In this document: piece after piece, positions 4,689 to 30,357 of the stretch
Layout: every line of letters begins with the position of its first letter
Numbering within the stretch: the stretch's first letter is position 1
IMG/VR virus record: IMGVR_UViG_3300017708_000104
Coordinates: 1 to 36,314 of that record
Length of the DNA stretch: 36,314 nt
Reading direction: 5' to 3' (one strand)
DNA from: a virus
Program-made: the position numbers and the translations under genes
Notes under the pieces: generated by a model
What the model was told of the DNA's origin: nothing
The model's database searches: none
What the model saw: the letters and a program-made list of their open reading frames with translations, nothing else

Positions 4689-5663
4689 ATGGCAGCACCA
4701 AATAGTAAAGCAACATTAACAGATCACTGTCTAAGGGCATTAGGATATCCTGTGATTGAAATAAATGTTGACGATGACCAGGTAGAAGATAGAGTAGATG
4801 AGGCTTTACAGTTTTATCAACACTATCATTCAGATGCCGTAGAAAAAGTATATTTAAAACATAAAGTTACTAATTCAGAAATAGAATTTACCGCCGCTTC
4901 AAATGGTACATTCGTAAAAGGTGAAATTATTACAGGTGGAACATCAGGCGCATCTTCAGTTATTGAATCTGTTACAAGCACAACCAAAATAAGGTACAAT
5001 GCATTAACAGACTTTAGTAAAGTATTTGCAGTTGGTGATGTAGTCACAGGCGGCACGTCCGGAGCTACAGGCACTATTAAAGCTAGTGGGATAACTATTG
5101 GTGATATAGAGAACGGTTATATAACCACACCAGAATTAGTTCAAGACGTATTAGATGTATTTCCAATAGAGGAAGCAACTACATCTACTAATATGTTTGA
5201 CATTAAATATCAAATGCACTTAAATGACATTTATTCATTAGGATTCTTAGGATCTTTAAGTGAATATGTTATGACACAACAATGGTTATCATTATTAGAT
5301 ATGGTAATTGACGATAGTACAAAGCATCTTAGTTTTGACAAACACAAAGATCAATTAAGGATCGATATGGATTGGAATAAAGAAGTTGATAGAGATGATT
5401 ACTTAATTGTAGAATGTAATAGAGTAATAGATCCAGACACATATACAGAAGTTTATAATGATTACTTCTTAAAAAGATATGCAACTGCACTTATTAAAAG
5501 ACAATGGGGAACAAACTTATTAAAGTTCGAAGGTATGCAAATGCCTGGCGGAGTAACATTTAATGGGAGACAACTCTTTGATGATGCTAATGAAGAAATT
5601 TTAAAATTAGAGGAAGAGTGTAGATTAAATTGGGAACAACCAGTCGATTTCTATACAGGATAA
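4689..5663 (+). CDS. 13: Neck protein gp13-like
   Basis: 324 residues, close to T4 gp13 (309). The N-terminus ALGYPVIEINVDDDQVEDR, with a following LQFYQHYHSDAVEK helix, and the C-terminal half (QWGTNLLKFEGMQMPGGV) match the gp13 neck/head-completion family. These proteins seal the portal vertex and connect the filled head to the tail with gp14. Residues about 62-138 form an insertion made of two GEIITGGTSGA / GDVVTGGTSGA repeats that interrupts the domain. First gene of the operon gp13-gp14-gp15-gp16-gp17, behind a late promoter. Assignment rests on sequence character plus perfect synteny with gp14. Confidence 0.9.
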   Translation: MAAPNSKATLTDHCLRALGYPVIEINVDDDQVEDRVDEALQFYQHYHSDAVEKVYLKHKVTNSEIEFTAASNGTFVKGEIITGGTSGASSVIESVTSTTKIRYNALTDFSKVFAVGDVVTGGTSGATGTIKASGITIGDIENGYITTPELVQDVLDVFPIEEATTSTNMFDIKYQMHLNDIYSLGFLGSLSEYVMTQQWLSLLDMVIDDSTKHLSFDKHKDQLRIDMDWNKEVDRDDYLIVECNRVIDPDTYTEVYNDYFLKRYATALIKRQWGTNLLKFEGMQMPGGVTFNGRQLFDDANEEILKLEEECRLNWEQPVDFYTG

Positions 5664-5666
5664 GTT

Positions 5667-6611
5667 ATGCCAAGATCAGTTTTCTTTTCTCAGGCAGTTA
5701 GATCAGAACAAAATCTTTACGAAGATCTGGTTATAGAAAGCCTAAAAATATTCGGTCAGGATGTATATTACATTCCGCGAACATTAGTGAATAGAGACGA
5801 TGTACTAAATGAAGATCCAGCATCAAGATTCGACGATGCATATTTAATAGAAGCTTACTTAGAAAATGTAGATGGTTTTGAAGGACAAGGTGATTTATAT
5901 TCTAAGTTTGGTTTAGAAATACGAGATGAAGCAACCTTTGTAATTTCTAGAAGACAGTGGGAAAAGATCGTTGGTATATTTTCTAGTGATTTAACAAACC
6001 CAAAACCCCAGGAAGGAGACGTTTTATTCCTTCCAATGACAAACTCTTTCTTTGAAATATCTTTTGTAGAAGATGATTCACCTTTCTATCAGTTATCTAA
6101 TTTACCAGTTTATAGAATGCAATGTTCTTTATTCGAATATTCAGACGAAGACTTCGATACTGGTATAGAAAGTATAGATCAAAAAACAGGTGCATCAGCT
6201 TATCAAGTCACAATGGATTTAGCTATCACAGGTGGTAATCATTTTGAAATTGGTGAAATAGTTCAACAAACTGTTGGGGTAAATGATTCTGGTGTGGATA
6301 TTATTGTTAAAGGTGAAGTTCAGAATAGAACTAAATCATCAGACACAGTATCCCAGATAGGTGTTTCTAATATAGAAGTTACGGGAAGCTCTGGTGTAGC
6401 TAGGGAGTTTATAGTATCAAACTCTGCACCAATGGTAGGTTCAATCAATAGCTATTCTGCTTATGTAACTAAGGTATATGGATTAACAGATACAACTGAA
6501 ACCTTTGATACAGATGGTGCTTCACAAAATGTAGAATTTGAATTAGAAGCTGATGGATTTATTGACTTTAGTGAAACTAATCCATTTGGCGATCCTTCGG
6601 AGACTTATTAA
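5667..6611 (+). CDS. 14: Neck protein gp14-like
   Basis: 314 residues (T4 gp14 is 256). The beginning MPRSVFFSQAVRSEQNLYED and the segment FGQDVYYIPRTLVNRDDVLNED are hallmarks of the gp14 head-completion/neck family, which works with gp13 to finish the neck before tail joining. The C-terminal third holds an extra beta-rich part (GEIVQQTVG, IVKGEVQNRTKSSDT), which explains the added length and is a common extension in marine T4-like phages. It starts 3 bases after gp13 and its stop overlaps the gp15 start (TAATG), so the three genes are translationally linked. Confidence 0.92.
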   Translation: MPRSVFFSQAVRSEQNLYEDLVIESLKIFGQDVYYIPRTLVNRDDVLNEDPASRFDDAYLIEAYLENVDGFEGQGDLYSKFGLEIRDEATFVISRRQWEKIVGIFSSDLTNPKPQEGDVLFLPMTNSFFEISFVEDDSPFYQLSNLPVYRMQCSLFEYSDEDFDTGIESIDQKTGASAYQVTMDLAITGGNHFEIGEIVQQTVGVNDSGVDIIVKGEVQNRTKSSDTVSQIGVSNIEVTGSSGVAREFIVSNSAPMVGSINSYSAYVTKVYGLTDTTETFDTDGASQNVEFELEADGFIDFSETNPFGDPSETY

Positions 6612-8080
6612 TGTTTGGACTTCATTTCTATCACGCAACAATGAGAAAATCAGTAGCAGTGTTTGGTACACTGTTCAATGATATTTCTGTGGTAAGAAAA
6701 GCGAGTGATGGATCTATATTAAATCAGGTACGTGTTCCGTTAGCTTATGGTCCAAAACAAAAATTTCTTTCTAGACTAGATCAGGAAACAGGATTTGATG
6801 CCCCAGTGGGAATTAAATTACCGCGTATGGCTTTTGAAATAACTTCTCTGGATTTAGATGTAGTTCAAAAAGGACAAAAAAGAAACAAGATAGTAGAGAA
6901 TCACGGTTCAGATGTAACTAAAAAGAAAACATTACAGAACTATACAGCATATAATATTGGTATGCAATTAAATATTCTTGCAAAGAACCAAGATGATGGA
7001 TTACAAATTATAGAACAAATACTTCCTTATTTCCAACCAGAATATACATTAACAATTAAACCAGTCACTGGATTTGATTTAAAACAAGATGTTCCAGTTA
7101 TATTAACTGGTGTAGCTATTGATGATCAGTATGAAGGGTCATATGAAGAGAGAAGAGTATTAACTTACACCTTGGATTTTGTTATGAAAATGAAGTTCTA
7201 TGGACCAACTGTAAATCAAGGGGTGATACGAGAAGTTAATCTTGACTTTGAAAATCAACAAACAGGTGAATTTTACGAGGGATTAAACTATACAGTTAGA
7301 CCTTCAGACACTGCAGATAATAAAGTTGTTACGGTATCATATGACGAAAACCAATTTGTAGTTGGTGGAGATCAATTTATATATGATGTAGAAATACAGC
7401 CTCAGTCAGTACAGATTGCAACTGCAAGTTCATCTTCAAGCACAGCGGAAGTACAACTTATTAACACATCATCATTACAAGTTGGACACATAGTAAGTGG
7501 AACAGGTATAAGTGGAACACCTCAGATATCTGCTATCAATTCACCAACTAAGATTACATTAAATACCGCTCAATCAATTGGAAACAACGTAACCTTATCA
7601 TTTACTGCTAATAAGTTTTACATCTTTGCCCAGGTACAACCTACGTTAACCTTATATAGAGGAAACACTTATATATTCCATCATCCAAGCGGACATCCAA
7701 TTAGATTTTCAACTACAAATGATGGAACACATGCTGGTGGTGCAGCATATACAACAGGGGTAGTAACAGATACAACTACTACGACTGCTCAAGTAAATGG
7801 CGCAGTTAATAATAGTACAAGTGTAACATTAACAGCTTCTAATCCAAATATAAAAGTTGGGGATGTAGTTACAGCTACAGGAATTAGTACAACGGTAGCT
7901 GCTATTAATGGACTTAGTTTAACACTATCAGAGGCAAAAACAATTGCAAATGGAACAACCCTGACATTTACAACATCCAGGACATTATTTTCACCAGTAG
8001 AAAATACACCTGAAGATTTATTTTATTATTGTGCAAATCATCCTAAAATGGGTGGACAAGTAATAGTATTAACATCGTAA
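6611..8080 (+). CDS. 15: Tail sheath stabilizer/completion protein gp15-like with cupredoxin-like extension
   Basis: 489 residues against 272 in T4. Residues 1 to about 265 (MFGLHFYHATMRKSVAVFGTL, then LDFVMKMKFYGPT near 190-200) match gp15, which caps the tail sheath and tube end and binds the neck. The extra C-terminus has a GHIVSGTGIS-type repeat (about 265-335), then a cupredoxin-like domain (about 336 to the end). In that domain H362 (GHPIRF), C474, H477 and M480 (YYCANHPKM) occupy the spacing of a type-1 copper site, Cys-x2-His-x2-Met. A second copy of the repeat (about 383-456) is inserted inside the cupredoxin fold. Copper binding is inferred, not shown. The start overlaps the gp14 stop. 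Confidence 0.88.
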   Translation: MFGLHFYHATMRKSVAVFGTLFNDISVVRKASDGSILNQVRVPLAYGPKQKFLSRLDQETGFDAPVGIKLPRMAFEITSLDLDVVQKGQKRNKIVENHGSDVTKKKTLQNYTAYNIGMQLNILAKNQDDGLQIIEQILPYFQPEYTLTIKPVTGFDLKQDVPVILTGVAIDDQYEGSYEERRVLTYTLDFVMKMKFYGPTVNQGVIREVNLDFENQQTGEFYEGLNYTVRPSDTADNKVVTVSYDENQFVVGGDQFIYDVEIQPQSVQIATASSSSSTAEVQLINTSSLQVGHIVSGTGISGTPQISAINSPTKITLNTAQSIGNNVTLSFTANKFYIFAQVQPTLTLYRGNTYIFHHPSGHPIRFSTTNDGTHAGGAAYTTGVVTDTTTTTAQVNGAVNNSTSVTLTASNPNIKVGDVVTATGISTTVAAINGLSLTLSEAKTIANGTTLTFTTSRTLFSPVENTPEDLFYYCANHPKMGGQVIVLTS

Positions 8081-10099: not shown

Positions 10100-11566
10100 A
10101 TGAAATTTAAAGAATATATAAATCCAACACCGACACTTGAATACGAGGATGATCTTGCGGAGAAGGTAGTATTTGAAAAAGACCCTTCCAAGTTACATTG
10201 TATTGTTCTTGGGTTAGGTGATGAAGAAGGAACATTCGCTGATATAGTTGGTAAGATAACTAAAAAGCGTGGAATGAAATTTACATTAATAAATGTAGAA
10301 GAAGCTTATATATCAAACGCGGATGTAGATTTAGGTTCTGTCGTTTTCCAAAATTATGATGGTGAAGATGGTGAAGTAGAAATCAGAAAAGAAAATTCAA
10401 TTGTATTTGTAAGAGCCGGAGCTATACAAACTTTAGTATCACAGTCTCTGGTATCAACATTAGGTACATACGGTTTCTTTATGGTTAATGATTTAGAATC
10501 TATGATGTTATGTGATAACAAAATGTCCAACGTAATTGCCCTAGATCGTAATAATATACCTACACCTAAATCATCTGTTATAACAAATGTTAAATCAATA
10601 GAAAGCGCACATAAAAAGATCGGTGGTAAATTTCCGGTAGTTATTAAAACATTAACTGGTACACAAGGTGTTGGTGTTTCTATAGCAGAGAGTAAACAAT
10701 CATTAGTTTCTGTTTGTCAATCCTTATGGAAATATGAAGCACAGTTATTAATACAGGAATATTTACCTTTAAAATCAGATATAAGAACATTAGTTGTAAA
10801 TGGTAGAATATTAGGATCAGCAGAAAGAGTTAAACAAGACGATAAAGAGTTTAGAAACAACGTACACTTAGGTGCAAAAACTTTACCATATAAACTATCA
10901 GATGAAGAAAAAGAACTCGTTAAACAGTCCGCACGTGCGACTGGCGCACTATATTGCGGTGTTGACCATTGTAAAGTTGGAAAAGATTATTACATATTAG
11001 AGATAAATGGTTCACCAGGTATTCGTTCACATTTTAATGGATATGATTTAGAAGATGGTAAATCTATAGGAAAGATTAACGACCAACAAGTATTAGCTAA
11101 TATAATAGATCATTTTATACACGAATTACATAGGAAACCACTATTTAGAACAGAGTGTGGTTATATAGAAAGAATAACAGTAGAAGGATTAAAACATCCA
11201 ATAAGAGGTAAGTTTGATACTGGAAATGGTACAAATGCTAGTATGTTACATGTCGATAAACTAGAAATAGAAGGCGATACAGCTATATGGGAAAAGAATG
11301 GTAATAAATTTAAATCCGAAATCGTAGATGTATCAATAGCTAGAAGATTACCAACAGTCCAGGAAAAAAGACCCGTTATAGAAATGACTATTAATTTTAA
11401 TAATAAATCATATCCGAACACAAGAATAGCTTTAACTACAACTGATTCGGCTTCAGAAATGTTATTAAATAGGGATTTAATGACTATATTTAAAGTGGCA
11501 GTTAACCCAGATAGGAGGTTTATATTGTCAGACCACGTCGGTAAAGAGGATAGAACCGACACTTAG
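10100..11566 (+). CDS. RimK-like ATP-grasp ligase fused to RimB-like aspartic protease domain
   Basis: 488 residues, starting one base after the gp17 stop. Residues about 30-340 are a RimK-type ATP-grasp ligase: ATP-binding lysine K183 with GTQGVGV (187-193), then SDIRTLVVNG (226-235), FRNNVHLGAK (251-260), GVDH (287-290) and the metal ligands E301 and N303 in EINGSPG. Residues about 350-480 resemble the retropepsin-like RimB (DUF785, often named ATP-dependent zinc protease) family: KFDTGNGTNAS with DTG at 373-375, then KRPVIEMTI, and LLNRDL with a closing NPDRRFIL. RimK adds glutamates to C-termini (ribosomal protein S6 in E. coli). The target here is unknown; position between gp17 and gp18 suggests virion or host-protein modification. 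Confidence 0.85.
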   Translation: MKFKEYINPTPTLEYEDDLAEKVVFEKDPSKLHCIVLGLGDEEGTFADIVGKITKKRGMKFTLINVEEAYISNADVDLGSVVFQNYDGEDGEVEIRKENSIVFVRAGAIQTLVSQSLVSTLGTYGFFMVNDLESMMLCDNKMSNVIALDRNNIPTPKSSVITNVKSIESAHKKIGGKFPVVIKTLTGTQGVGVSIAESKQSLVSVCQSLWKYEAQLLIQEYLPLKSDIRTLVVNGRILGSAERVKQDDKEFRNNVHLGAKTLPYKLSDEEKELVKQSARATGALYCGVDHCKVGKDYYILEINGSPGIRSHFNGYDLEDGKSIGKINDQQVLANIIDHFIHELHRKPLFRTECGYIERITVEGLKHPIRGKFDTGNGTNASMLHVDKLEIEGDTAIWEKNGNKFKSEIVDVSIARRLPTVQEKRPVIEMTINFNNKSYPNTRIALTTTDSASEMLLNRDLMTIFKVAVNPDRRFILSDHVGKEDRTDT

Positions 11567-11647: not shown

Positions 11648-13339
11648 ATGGCATTTCAAGTATCACCAGGCGTTGAGGTCAAAGAGATCGACGCAACTAG
11701 CGTGATTCCAGCAGTATCTACCAGTATTGGCGGATTTGCCGGATCATTTAACTGGGGTCCAGTCGGCGAAATTAAAACAGTTGGTTCTGAATCAGAACTT
11801 GCTGAACATTTCGGTACACCGGATGACAGTACAGCTAAGTATTTTCTTACAGCCGCGGCATTCTTAAAGTATGGCAACGCGCTGAAGGTTGTTAGGGTAT
11901 TATCAGGGCATGACAATGCTACTGGTGATGGTTCCGGACAACTGATTAAGAATAAAGAAGATTATGATAATAACTATGCTAACGGCTCCCTATCAAAGGG
12001 AGATTGGGTTGCTAAATATCCAGGAGTTCTAGGAAACAGCTTAAAAGTTTCTGTTATATCGCAAGGTATATCAAGCTTTTCAGGCTGGACATATGCAGGA
12101 TCTTTTGATTCAGCACCAGGAACATCTGACTATGCAATCTCAATTGGTAAATCGGGCGCAAACGACGAATTACACGTAGCAGTTATTGATGAAGATGGTT
12201 TACTAACAGGTACTGCAGGTACAGTGTTAGAAACTTTCGCATTCGTATCCCAGGGTTCAGATGCTAAAAAGAGTGATGGAACATCCAACTACTACAAAGA
12301 AGTTATTAATAATAACTCTAAGTGGATTTGGTGGGCTGATCATAACTCAAACTTAGCGGAAGCAGGAAATCTTATTTCCGGCGTACCAGGGGGTTCATTC
12401 ACAACTCACACATCAGCAATGGAAGCTTCATTAGCTGGTGGATCAGACGATAATGCACCAACAGCAGGCGAAATCGCAATAGGTTACGACTTATTCGAAG
12501 ACGCTGAAACAGTTGATGTTAACTTATTGTTTGCATGTCCAGATGCTAACGGCGCAGAGACAATCGCAGAAGACTTAATCTCTATTGCAACAGCAAGAAA
12601 AGATTGTATGGCTTTTGTATCTCCACCGATAGAGGACACAGTAGGAAGTTCAGCTCCAGCAACAGACGTTATGGCGTTTGCAAATGGATTAACTTCTTCA
12701 TCATACGCATCTTGCGATAGTTCAGCATTATACGTATACGACAAATATAACGACGTATATAGATATATTGGTGCAGCAGGACACGTAGCAGGTTTATGTG
12801 CTAATGCTTCAAATGTAGCAGATGCATGGTTCTCACCAGCTGGTGTAAACCGTGGACAGCTATTAGGAGTAACTAAATTAGCATACAATCCTAACAAAGC
12901 AGATAGAGATACATTGTACAAAGGAAGAGTAAATCCACTGGTTTCTTTCCCAGGACAAGGTATGATGTTATTTGGGGATAAAACTCTACTTAGCAAACCA
13001 TCTGCATTCGATAGGATTAACGTTCGTAGATTGTTCATAGCACTAGAGAAAGCAATTTCAACAGCAGCTAAAGCACAATTATTTGAATTCAATGATGAGT
13101 TCACAAGAGCGAATTTCCGCAATATGGTGGAACCGTTCTTAAGAGACGTTAAAGGAAGACGTGGGGTTACAGATTTCCAAGTAATTTGTGACACTACTAA
13201 CAATACAGGCGCAGTTATAGATGGAAATAGATTCGTTGCTGATATCTTTATCAAGCCAGCTAGATCTATTAACTTCATTACACTGAACTTCATAGCAACC
13301 AGAACCGGAGTAGAATTCTCCGAGATAGCTGGATCATAG
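11648..13339 (+). CDS. 18: Contractile tail sheath protein gp18-like
   Basis: 563 residues (T4 gp18 659). The N-terminus VSPGVEVKEIDATSVIPAVS, then GGFAGSFNWGPVGE, is the signature of phage tail sheath subunits. The C-terminal FNDEFTRANFRNMVEPFLRD and VICDTTNN segments are the conserved sheath core that forms the mesh of strands between subunits. It polymerises around the gp19 tube and contracts at infection. It has its own late promoter and a good ribosome site. Codons look somewhat more GC-rich than in the fibre genes, as expected for a highly expressed gene. gp19 follows after 12 bases. Confidence 0.95.
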   Translation: MAFQVSPGVEVKEIDATSVIPAVSTSIGGFAGSFNWGPVGEIKTVGSESELAEHFGTPDDSTAKYFLTAAAFLKYGNALKVVRVLSGHDNATGDGSGQLIKNKEDYDNNYANGSLSKGDWVAKYPGVLGNSLKVSVISQGISSFSGWTYAGSFDSAPGTSDYAISIGKSGANDELHVAVIDEDGLLTGTAGTVLETFAFVSQGSDAKKSDGTSNYYKEVINNNSKWIWWADHNSNLAEAGNLISGVPGGSFTTHTSAMEASLAGGSDDNAPTAGEIAIGYDLFEDAETVDVNLLFACPDANGAETIAEDLISIATARKDCMAFVSPPIEDTVGSSAPATDVMAFANGLTSSSYASCDSSALYVYDKYNDVYRYIGAAGHVAGLCANASNVADAWFSPAGVNRGQLLGVTKLAYNPNKADRDTLYKGRVNPLVSFPGQGMMLFGDKTLLSKPSAFDRINVRRLFIALEKAISTAAKAQLFEFNDEFTRANFRNMVEPFLRDVKGRRGVTDFQVICDTTNNTGAVIDGNRFVADIFIKPARSINFITLNFIATRTGVEFSEIAGS

Positions 13340-13351
13340 GGGGAATAAATC

Positions 13352-13879
13352 ATGGCAATATTAGGCGTAGACGATTTTAAATCTAAACTAGTTGGCGGTG
13401 GTGCTCGTTCTAACTTATTTAAAGTTACAATGAACTTCCCAGGCTATGCAGGTGGTGATGTAGAACTTACATCATTTATGTGTAAAACTGCTCAATTCCC
13501 TGCATCAATTGTAGCACCGATAATGGTACCATTCAGAGGAAGACAACTTCAGATAGCTGGAGATAGAACTTTTGAACCTTGGACTATTACAGTTATTAAT
13601 GATGTTGGTTTTGAAGTACGAAATGCATTTGAAGCATGGAGTAACGGTATTAATTCACACAATGCTAATACAGGATTAAGTAATCCAACAGATTATCAAG
13701 CTGATGCTATTATAGAACAACTTGATAAAGAAGGTAATACTACTAAAACTTACGACTTTAGAGGGCTTTGGCCATCTAACGTAGGAGCAATAGACGTTTC
13801 ATATGAAACTGAAAATGCTATTCAGGAGTTTACTGTTGAGCTACAAGTTCAGTATTGGGAGAGTGGAACCACTTCCTAA
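13352..13879 (+). CDS. 19: Tail tube protein gp19-like
   Basis: 175 residues (T4 gp19 163). Conserved features are the start GVDDFKSKLVGGGARSNLFK, the segment MVPFRGRQLQIAGDRTFEPW with the GDRTF turn, and the end FRGLWPSNVGAIDVSYET with IQEFTVELQVQYWE, all close to the gp19 tail tube family. It forms the hexameric rings of the inner tube inside the gp18 sheath. It lies 12 bases after gp18, with GGGGGAAT acting as ribosome site, so the two are translated from the same late message. A second, more divergent tube-like protein is encoded at 19013. Confidence 0.95.
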   Translation: MAILGVDDFKSKLVGGGARSNLFKVTMNFPGYAGGDVELTSFMCKTAQFPASIVAPIMVPFRGRQLQIAGDRTFEPWTITVINDVGFEVRNAFEAWSNGINSHNANTGLSNPTDYQADAIIEQLDKEGNTTKTYDFRGLWPSNVGAIDVSYETENAIQEFTVELQVQYWESGTTS

Positions 13880-29181: not shown

Positions 29182-30357
29182 ATGAAAGAAATGAGAATAT
29201 CAACACAAAGGATCTTAGCAGAAATCTCTACTAAGTTCCCAGGTCAAACGGATTTCCGTAGGGCCATAATCGAAGACGTGGCAAAGTCCATGGGCTTCAC
29301 CGCTAAGGATTATTATCCTTTACTTAAACCAGAAAACAGAGTTAAGATTGGTACTTACTCTTTAGATGGTTTACTTCCTGAACCAGCAGAACAAGCTCCG
29401 GCAGCTACGGATAAAATCCCAGCTACTGCGGCTCAAATGCAATCTATTGTTAGCGATGAAAGATCATACGCAACAGTAGATCCTACATTCGTTCCATGGG
29501 GTTCTTTCAAAGACATTACACAGATTATTAAATCTGGAATGTTTTATCCTACATACGTTTCTGGTTTATCTGGAAATGGTAAAACATTTATGATTGAGCA
29601 AGCATGTGCTAAAATTGGTAAAGAATTCATTAGAGTTCAAATCAACCCTGAAACAGATGAGGATGATTTACTTGGTGGATTTAGATTGATTAACGGCGAA
29701 ACAGTCTTTGCTAAAGGCCCAGTTCTAAAAGCTATGGAAAATGGCGCAATACTTCTACTCGATGAAATCGATAGAGCTACTAACAAGATTATGTGTCTTC
29801 AAGGTATCTTAGAAGGTAAGCCAGTCCTAGTTAAAAAGACCGGTGAAACAATTACACCTAAAAAAGGTTTCAACGTATTCGCAACAGCGAACACTAAAGG
29901 TAAAGGTTCCGATGATGGAAGATTTACAGCAGCTTCTATTATCGATGAAGCTTTCCTAGAAAGATTTACTATCTCAGTGGATCAGCAATTCCCTTCCGCT
30001 GCTATTGAAAAGAAAATCCTTTCTAAGCATATGGATAAATTCGATGTTCAAGATGATGAGTTTGTACAAAAGCTTGTTACTTGGGCAGATATAATTAGAA
30101 AAACATTTTATGATGATGGCGTAGATGAAGTTATCTCAACTAGAAGGCTTTGCCACGTAGTTCAAACTTTCTCTATCTTCAAAGATAAAATGAAATCAAT
30201 CGACCTATGTATTTCAAGGTTCGATGATGATACAAAACTAGCATTCTTGGATCTATACACGAAAGTAGATTCAGGTGCTCAACTAGATTATGGCCAACCT
30301 GAGAATGAGGTCGATCTAGAAGACTTAGCAAACGAGGAATATAATGACAAAATCTAA
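29182..30357 (+). CDS. MoxR/CobS-like AAA+ ATPase
   Basis: 391 residues. After a 100-residue N-terminal part comes an AAA+ core: Walker A GLSGNGKT (128-135), TDEDDLLGGFRL (158-169), Walker B AILLLDEID (189-197), sensor FATANTKGKG, and an arginine-finger region FLERFTI. The TDEDDLLGG insert is characteristic of the MoxR/CobS branch. In cyanophages the homologue is usually labelled cobS (cobaltochelatase subunit), but a general MoxR role as chaperone motor working on the adjacent VWA protein fits this context better. It has its own promoter P4 and overlaps the next gene by 14 bases. Confidence 0.9.
   Translation: MKEMRISTQRILAEISTKFPGQTDFRRAIIEDVAKSMGFTAKDYYPLLKPENRVKIGTYSLDGLLPEPAEQAPAATDKIPATAAQMQSIVSDERSYATVDPTFVPWGSFKDITQIIKSGMFYPTYVSGLSGNGKTFMIEQACAKIGKEFIRVQINPETDEDDLLGGFRLINGETVFAKGPVLKAMENGAILLLDEIDRATNKIMCLQGILEGKPVLVKKTGETITPKKGFNVFATANTKGKGSDDGRFTAASIIDEAFLERFTISVDQQFPSAAIEKKILSKHMDKFDVQDDEFVQKLVTWADIIRKTFYDDGVDEVISTRRLCHVVQTFSIFKDKMKSIDLCISRFDDDTKLAFLDLYTKVDSGAQLDYGQPENEVDLEDLANEEYNDKI

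Follow-up and report, generated by a model that had tools for sequence, protein, structure and literature searches.

This locus raises the question of what the long C-terminal extension of a phage neck protein is and whether it could hold copper. The window, which is the whole 36,314-nucleotide stretch of marine T4-like phage DNA analysed here (IMG/VR record IMGVR_UViG_3300017708_000104), contains an open reading frame at 6611-8080 (+ strand) that encodes a 489-aa gp15, the tail terminator or sheath stabiliser, with a C-terminal extension. The product was assigned to phrog_227. PF16724 (T4-gp15_tss) covered residues 5-238 with an E-value of 2.9e-68 and 230 bits against a curated cut-off of 25, which places the protein in that family. 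The gp15 body (residues 1-238; 6611-7324, + strand) had a pN/pS of 0.13. Its residues 3-203 matched T4 gp15 structures (4hud, 4huh, and 9mkb), and superposition on 4hud gave Z 14.2 and 4.4 Å over 173 residues with 22% identity. T4 gp15 is 272 aa long. The window copy therefore has an excess of 217 residues, in line with the roughly 220 estimated in a first-pass annotation of this DNA. Unlike T4 gp15, it holds a cupredoxin and two β-barrels in these additional residues.

PHROG assignments of the ORFs indicated a T4-type gene order, gp13-gp14-gp15-gp16-gp17, with gp13 at 4689-5663 and gp14 at 5667-6611. Genes for sheath, tube, portal, protease, scaffold, and capsid follow gp17. The window gp13 has an insert (residues ~75-140) with two GGTSGAS/GGTSGAT motif copies, which is missing in many relatives. 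An ATP-grasp, RimK-like gene (phrog_2599, ribosomal protein S6 glutaminyl transferase) is located at 10100-11566 between the terminase large subunit and tail sheath genes. A CobS-like gene (phrog_249, annotated as porphyrin biosynthesis), common in marine T4-like phages, is at 29182-30357. Opposite the tail sheath gene, the − strand has an open frame of 289 aa (12484-13353), which is probably a chance occurrence.

The 3D structure of the window gp15 was modeled using AlphaFold 2 (AF2) with 33 gp15 rows. The means of ten-residue blocks were 86-97 at residues 261-489 and 76 at residues 251-260, whereas pLDDT was below 50 for residues 207-252. Residues 239-254 (7325-7372, + strand) are thus predicted to form a flexible linker. 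A compact relative, modeled with 33 rows from viral contigs, had a mean pLDDT of 95. Foldseek and VIA-align matched this compact model to rusticyanin, pseudoazurin, plastocyanin, the NirK type-1 domain, and two-domain laccases; for VIA-align, the matches listed were copper proteins only. The best match was the N-terminal type-1 copper domain of the three-domain nitrite reductase NirK of H. denitrificans (2dv6, 6tfo), with Z 9.7 and 1.9 Å over 84 residues. Window residues 253-489 superposed on the same domain with Z 9.1 and 2.1 Å over 88 residues when both inserts were skipped. The phage protein differs from the reductase in that the catalytic copper domains are absent and the domain is carried on a virion protein. 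Judged from these models, both the compact relative and the window domain have the cupredoxin β-sandwich fold, as the first-pass annotation had proposed.

The cupredoxin, about 105 residues in size, is split by two inserts. Its first strand (residues 255-266; 7373-7408, + strand) is part of the AF2 strand 255-271 and has an insert-free counterpart in L025. Insert 1 (residues ~267-331; 7409-7603, + strand) is a β-barrel resembling the I-domain of the P22 coat protein. The middle part of the cupredoxin (residues 332-388; 7604-7774, + strand) carries H362. Insert 2 (residues ~389-456; 7775-7978, + strand) is a second β-barrel, paralogous to insert 1, and the C-terminal part (residues 457-489; 7979-8077, + strand) contains the C-x2-H-x2-M loop. 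The first-pass annotation had put the domain at 7610-8080 and did not mention the inserts. Its C-terminal location was right, but the domain begins near residue 255 (7373). Insert 1 lies upstream of 7610, and insert 2, at ~7775-7978 within that range, is outside the cupredoxin fold.

Comparison among viral-contig relatives indicated that the extension is modular. The compact 118-aa extension of L025 is a cupredoxin with no insert. In L012 and L013, a single insert lies ahead of the NKY strand. The same insert is present in the window and its nearest relatives, together with another one that separates TTGV from the last third. Insert 1 is absent from L025, and insert 2 from L012, L013, L017, and L025. 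The remaining gp15 relatives end a few residues past the body or have unrelated short extensions. The two window inserts share 35% identity over 51 residues. Insert 1 superposed on residues 222-344 of the P22 coat protein with Z 8.8 and 2.0 Å over 69 residues (VIA-align), although the window barrels are inserted twice into a cupredoxin and not into a coat protein. Insert 2 superposed on residues 103-179 of the phage Mystique tail tube with Z 10.0 and 1.8 Å over 67 residues (VIA-align).

The four predicted copper ligands, H362 (7694-7696), C474 (8030-8032), H477 (8039-8041), and M480 (8048-8050), all on the + strand, are present as first annotated, in the type-1 order His...Cys-x2-His-x2-Met. 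The spacing of the C-x2-H-x2-M loop is that of amicyanin. C474 is the sole cysteine of the 489-aa protein, and a C-x2-H-x2-M motif arose by chance in 0.011% of shuffles of the extension. In an alignment of 38 diverse copies, both His ligands and the Cys were the only invariant columns, and Met, the predicted weak axial ligand, was kept in at least 90%, in a family with a mean column identity of 48%. The complete HCHM set was found in 113 of 118 full-length unique copies and in 35 of 36 distinct complete neck copies. Some scans used the pattern LYYYC-NH, which covers the Cys-His loop, so that part of the sampling is biased towards the loop. The same ligand conservation was obtained with less biased sets, namely the tblastn set of isolate phages and neck loci found via gp14 or gp15 body patterns. 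Loss of these residues among homologues had been named beforehand as an observation that would speak against the site; conservation was found instead.

The remaining five of the 118 copies were one HCHH copy and four (L078, L079, L082, and L085) in which Cys was replaced by Ala. Each of the four had lost at least one further ligand. One of them is a free-standing 112-aa gene of cyanophage PSS2 (CSPG_00077; L082:4992-5330) that consists of the domain alone and has lost three ligands (D-A-T-M). Ig-like modules are a common addition to phage surface proteins, and such copies with lost ligands would suit a cupredoxin fold that is a bare β-sandwich decoration of the Ig-like kind, with the four residues as structural leftovers and a metal-free virion. 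We consider this unlikely. The three ligands would not be expected to be the only invariant columns of so variable a family, and copies that lose the Cys lose other ligands too; such a pattern is expected of a metal site but not of a bare scaffold. The codons of C474 and H477 vary synonymously within the window clade. The pN/pS values were 0.31-0.32 for the ligand-bearing cupredoxin parts and 0.37-0.45 for the inserts, against 0.13 for the gp15 body. With the fold, the four ligands, and the occurrence of the domain on neighbouring neck proteins of related phages, copper binding by the virion appears to be under selection.

Of 198 cupredoxin copies, 162 keep a fifth residue, H374 (7730-7732; DGTH motif, alignment column 75). 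This His is not among the type-1 ligands and may serve the structure or provide a second metal contact. In L019 (L019:3051-4373), the axial Met is replaced by His (C-x2-H-x2-H) in an otherwise intact gp15. Together, these two observations leave room for another metal or geometry: the site could be non-blue, holding zinc, iron, or differently coordinated copper, with H374 as a possible participant, and mainly stabilising the domain in seawater. For the tail fibre of an alterophage, six potential iron-binding domains are reportedly proposed (PMC11705849), which also points in that direction. However, gp9-type copies are without H374 yet keep the other four ligands, and among solved structures the nearest relatives of the domain are of the type-1 copper kind. 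A non-blue site therefore seems rather doubtful to us.

Relation to known copper-protein families was examined by profile searches. The first matches of the family profile in the PDB were NirK (4.5e-4), a multicopper oxidase of N. maritimus (0.0014), and plastocyanin (0.008), and all four ligands aligned with the ligands of plastocyanin 1b3i. The phage domain thus shares its fold and its His, Cys, His, and Met with the plastocyanin/azurin family (PF00127, Copper-bind). It differs in being carried on a virion protein, in the two inserts of the window copy, and in being without a redox partner. A direct Pfam search gave no PF00127 match for the window protein. PF00127 matched 3 of the 38 family members with E-values down to 0.0012, below the cut-off. 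Two marine bacterial proteins were above the PF00127 cut-off and also scored 54 and 49 bits against the phage profile, which links the phage domain to the Copper-bind family. The window protein is tied to PF00127 only via the intermediates L361 and L358. The At5g54830-like domain (PF25489) also matched over the cupredoxin with E-values of 1e-4 to 1e-3, at 22.6 and 19 bits against a family cut-off of 27. Direct searches of the extension against Pfam and NCBIfam returned no family above cut-off. Single-sequence phmmer against the PDB returned chance antibody and T-cell receptor matches and one weak NirK match; it took the profile to bring out the copper proteins. Profile comparison with three classical marine plastocyanins only was weak (probability 67%). 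The domain is unnamed in Pfam and PHROGs, and the open-access literature searched contained no description of a cupredoxin or type 1 copper on phage structural proteins.

Type-1 copper is classically an electron carrier, and with its complete ligand set the domain could be imagined as a working redox centre that exchanges electrons with host surface proteins during adsorption. Against this, neither a redox partner nor a second cofactor or multicopper domain was seen in or around gp15, the neck stays well away from the cell surface while the phage adsorbs, and the placement of the domain shifts among three neck proteins. Such a redox centre is highly improbable.

In some relatives, the domain is located inside gp13 (L050 and L260-L264) or inside gp14 (L033, L035, L036, L282, and L320-L325) instead of gp15. 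Among 163 unique gp13-gp15 clusters, 27 had it in gp15, 7 in gp14, and 6 in gp13; none had it in two proteins at once, and 123 had none, indicating that the domain is dispensable for the neck as such. Mutual exclusion of the placements was considered as proof of function and rejected: about 2.4 doubles were expected by independence, so the 0 of 163 observed is not significant and exclusivity is not shown. The gp14 insertion is at about T4 residue 222, within the C-terminal region (178-256), which binds gp15 residues 203-245 in T4 (PMC12270204). The gp13 insertion corresponds to T4 residues 192-209, within domain III (190-239), which binds the fibritin whiskers (PMC12270204). Mapped on T4, the gp13, gp14, and gp15 sites are probably all located around the outside of the neck.

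On the gp15-body tree, the neck placement states needed at least nine changes. Many independent gains were considered on this basis and rejected, as the domain tree grouped the copies by host protein. The gp15 copies formed one clade (SH-aLRT 86), the gp14 copies one (90), and the gp13 copies were in one or two clades. The safer and simplest reading is that the domain was acquired three or four times, with loss and recombination afterwards.

The domain is not confined to necks. Among isolate phages, 123 records contained it, mostly Synechococcus and Prochlorococcus phages with some pelagiphages, and the annotated matches were tail fibres, gp9 fibre connectors, baseplate wedge proteins, and virion structural proteins. 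It was also found in at least 255 viral-contig stretches, and structural matches in BFVD included many cyanophage structural proteins. Cellular copies were found in marine SAR86, SAR116, Gammaproteobacteria, Flavobacteriaceae, and marine Euryarchaeota. Several of them were on short lipoprotein-like proteins with lipobox-like Cys at their N-termini, and others on large proteins of surface type with more than 1,300 residues. From their make-up, L167 and L168 may be phage proteins within MAGs.

Computation gave the fold, the ligand set, its upkeep as a unit, its spread, and its alternative neck placements. We consider it likely that the gp15 extension is a genuine cupredoxin with a site capable of holding type-1 copper (H362, C474, H477, and M480). 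There is one predicted copper site per gp15 subunit, as first suggested. The carrier proteins of the domain lie exposed on the T4 virion. The predicted flexible linker would join the cupredoxin to the terminator ring in the neck between head and tail, and with a hexameric gp15, as in T4, six copies per virion would project from the neck. The window domain is one member of a cupredoxin family with copper ligands that is displayed on many exposed marine phage virion proteins, and of which marine microbes carry copies on surface lipoproteins. Phage assembly is cytoplasmic and free copper is scarce there, which counts against the copper reading; we suppose that copper would be loaded after lysis or outside the cytoplasm.

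The metal-loaded face might then mediate contact at the surface of the particle, either as reversible contact with the host surface or as docking of fibres at the neck. We favour such a surface-contact role over electron transfer only tentatively, at somewhat below an even chance. Fibre docking and reversible host contact appear the most plausible forms because the domain sits at the gp13 whisker site and also occurs on fibre connectors and fibres. These two observations would also fit one specific form, in which the domain is a neck dock for long tail fibres or whiskers, involves fibre-borne cupredoxins, and replaces the fibritin binding of T4 gp13 domain III. The neck cupredoxin is missing in most relatives, however, and its alternation between gp13, gp14, and gp15 lacks statistical significance, so this specific dock is, in our estimate, not probable. 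A bolder idea is that the blue-copper neck sites act as a copper- or redox-responsive switch, as a fibre latch or in binding host copper-uptake surface proteins, and that a domain moved among gp13, gp14, and gp15 keeps one set per particle. We regard this as quite improbable.

The first-pass observation is confirmed and its interpretation partly borne out, by ligand conservation and fold; the inserts, the spread to other virion proteins, and the placements in gp13 or gp14 go beyond it. The extension puts a known fold in a new setting and is nothing new in kind. If it does bind copper, the particles of abundant marine phages would bear type-1 copper sites and join the marine copper pool, and contacts of the neck, the fibres, and the host could be approached through a defined metal.
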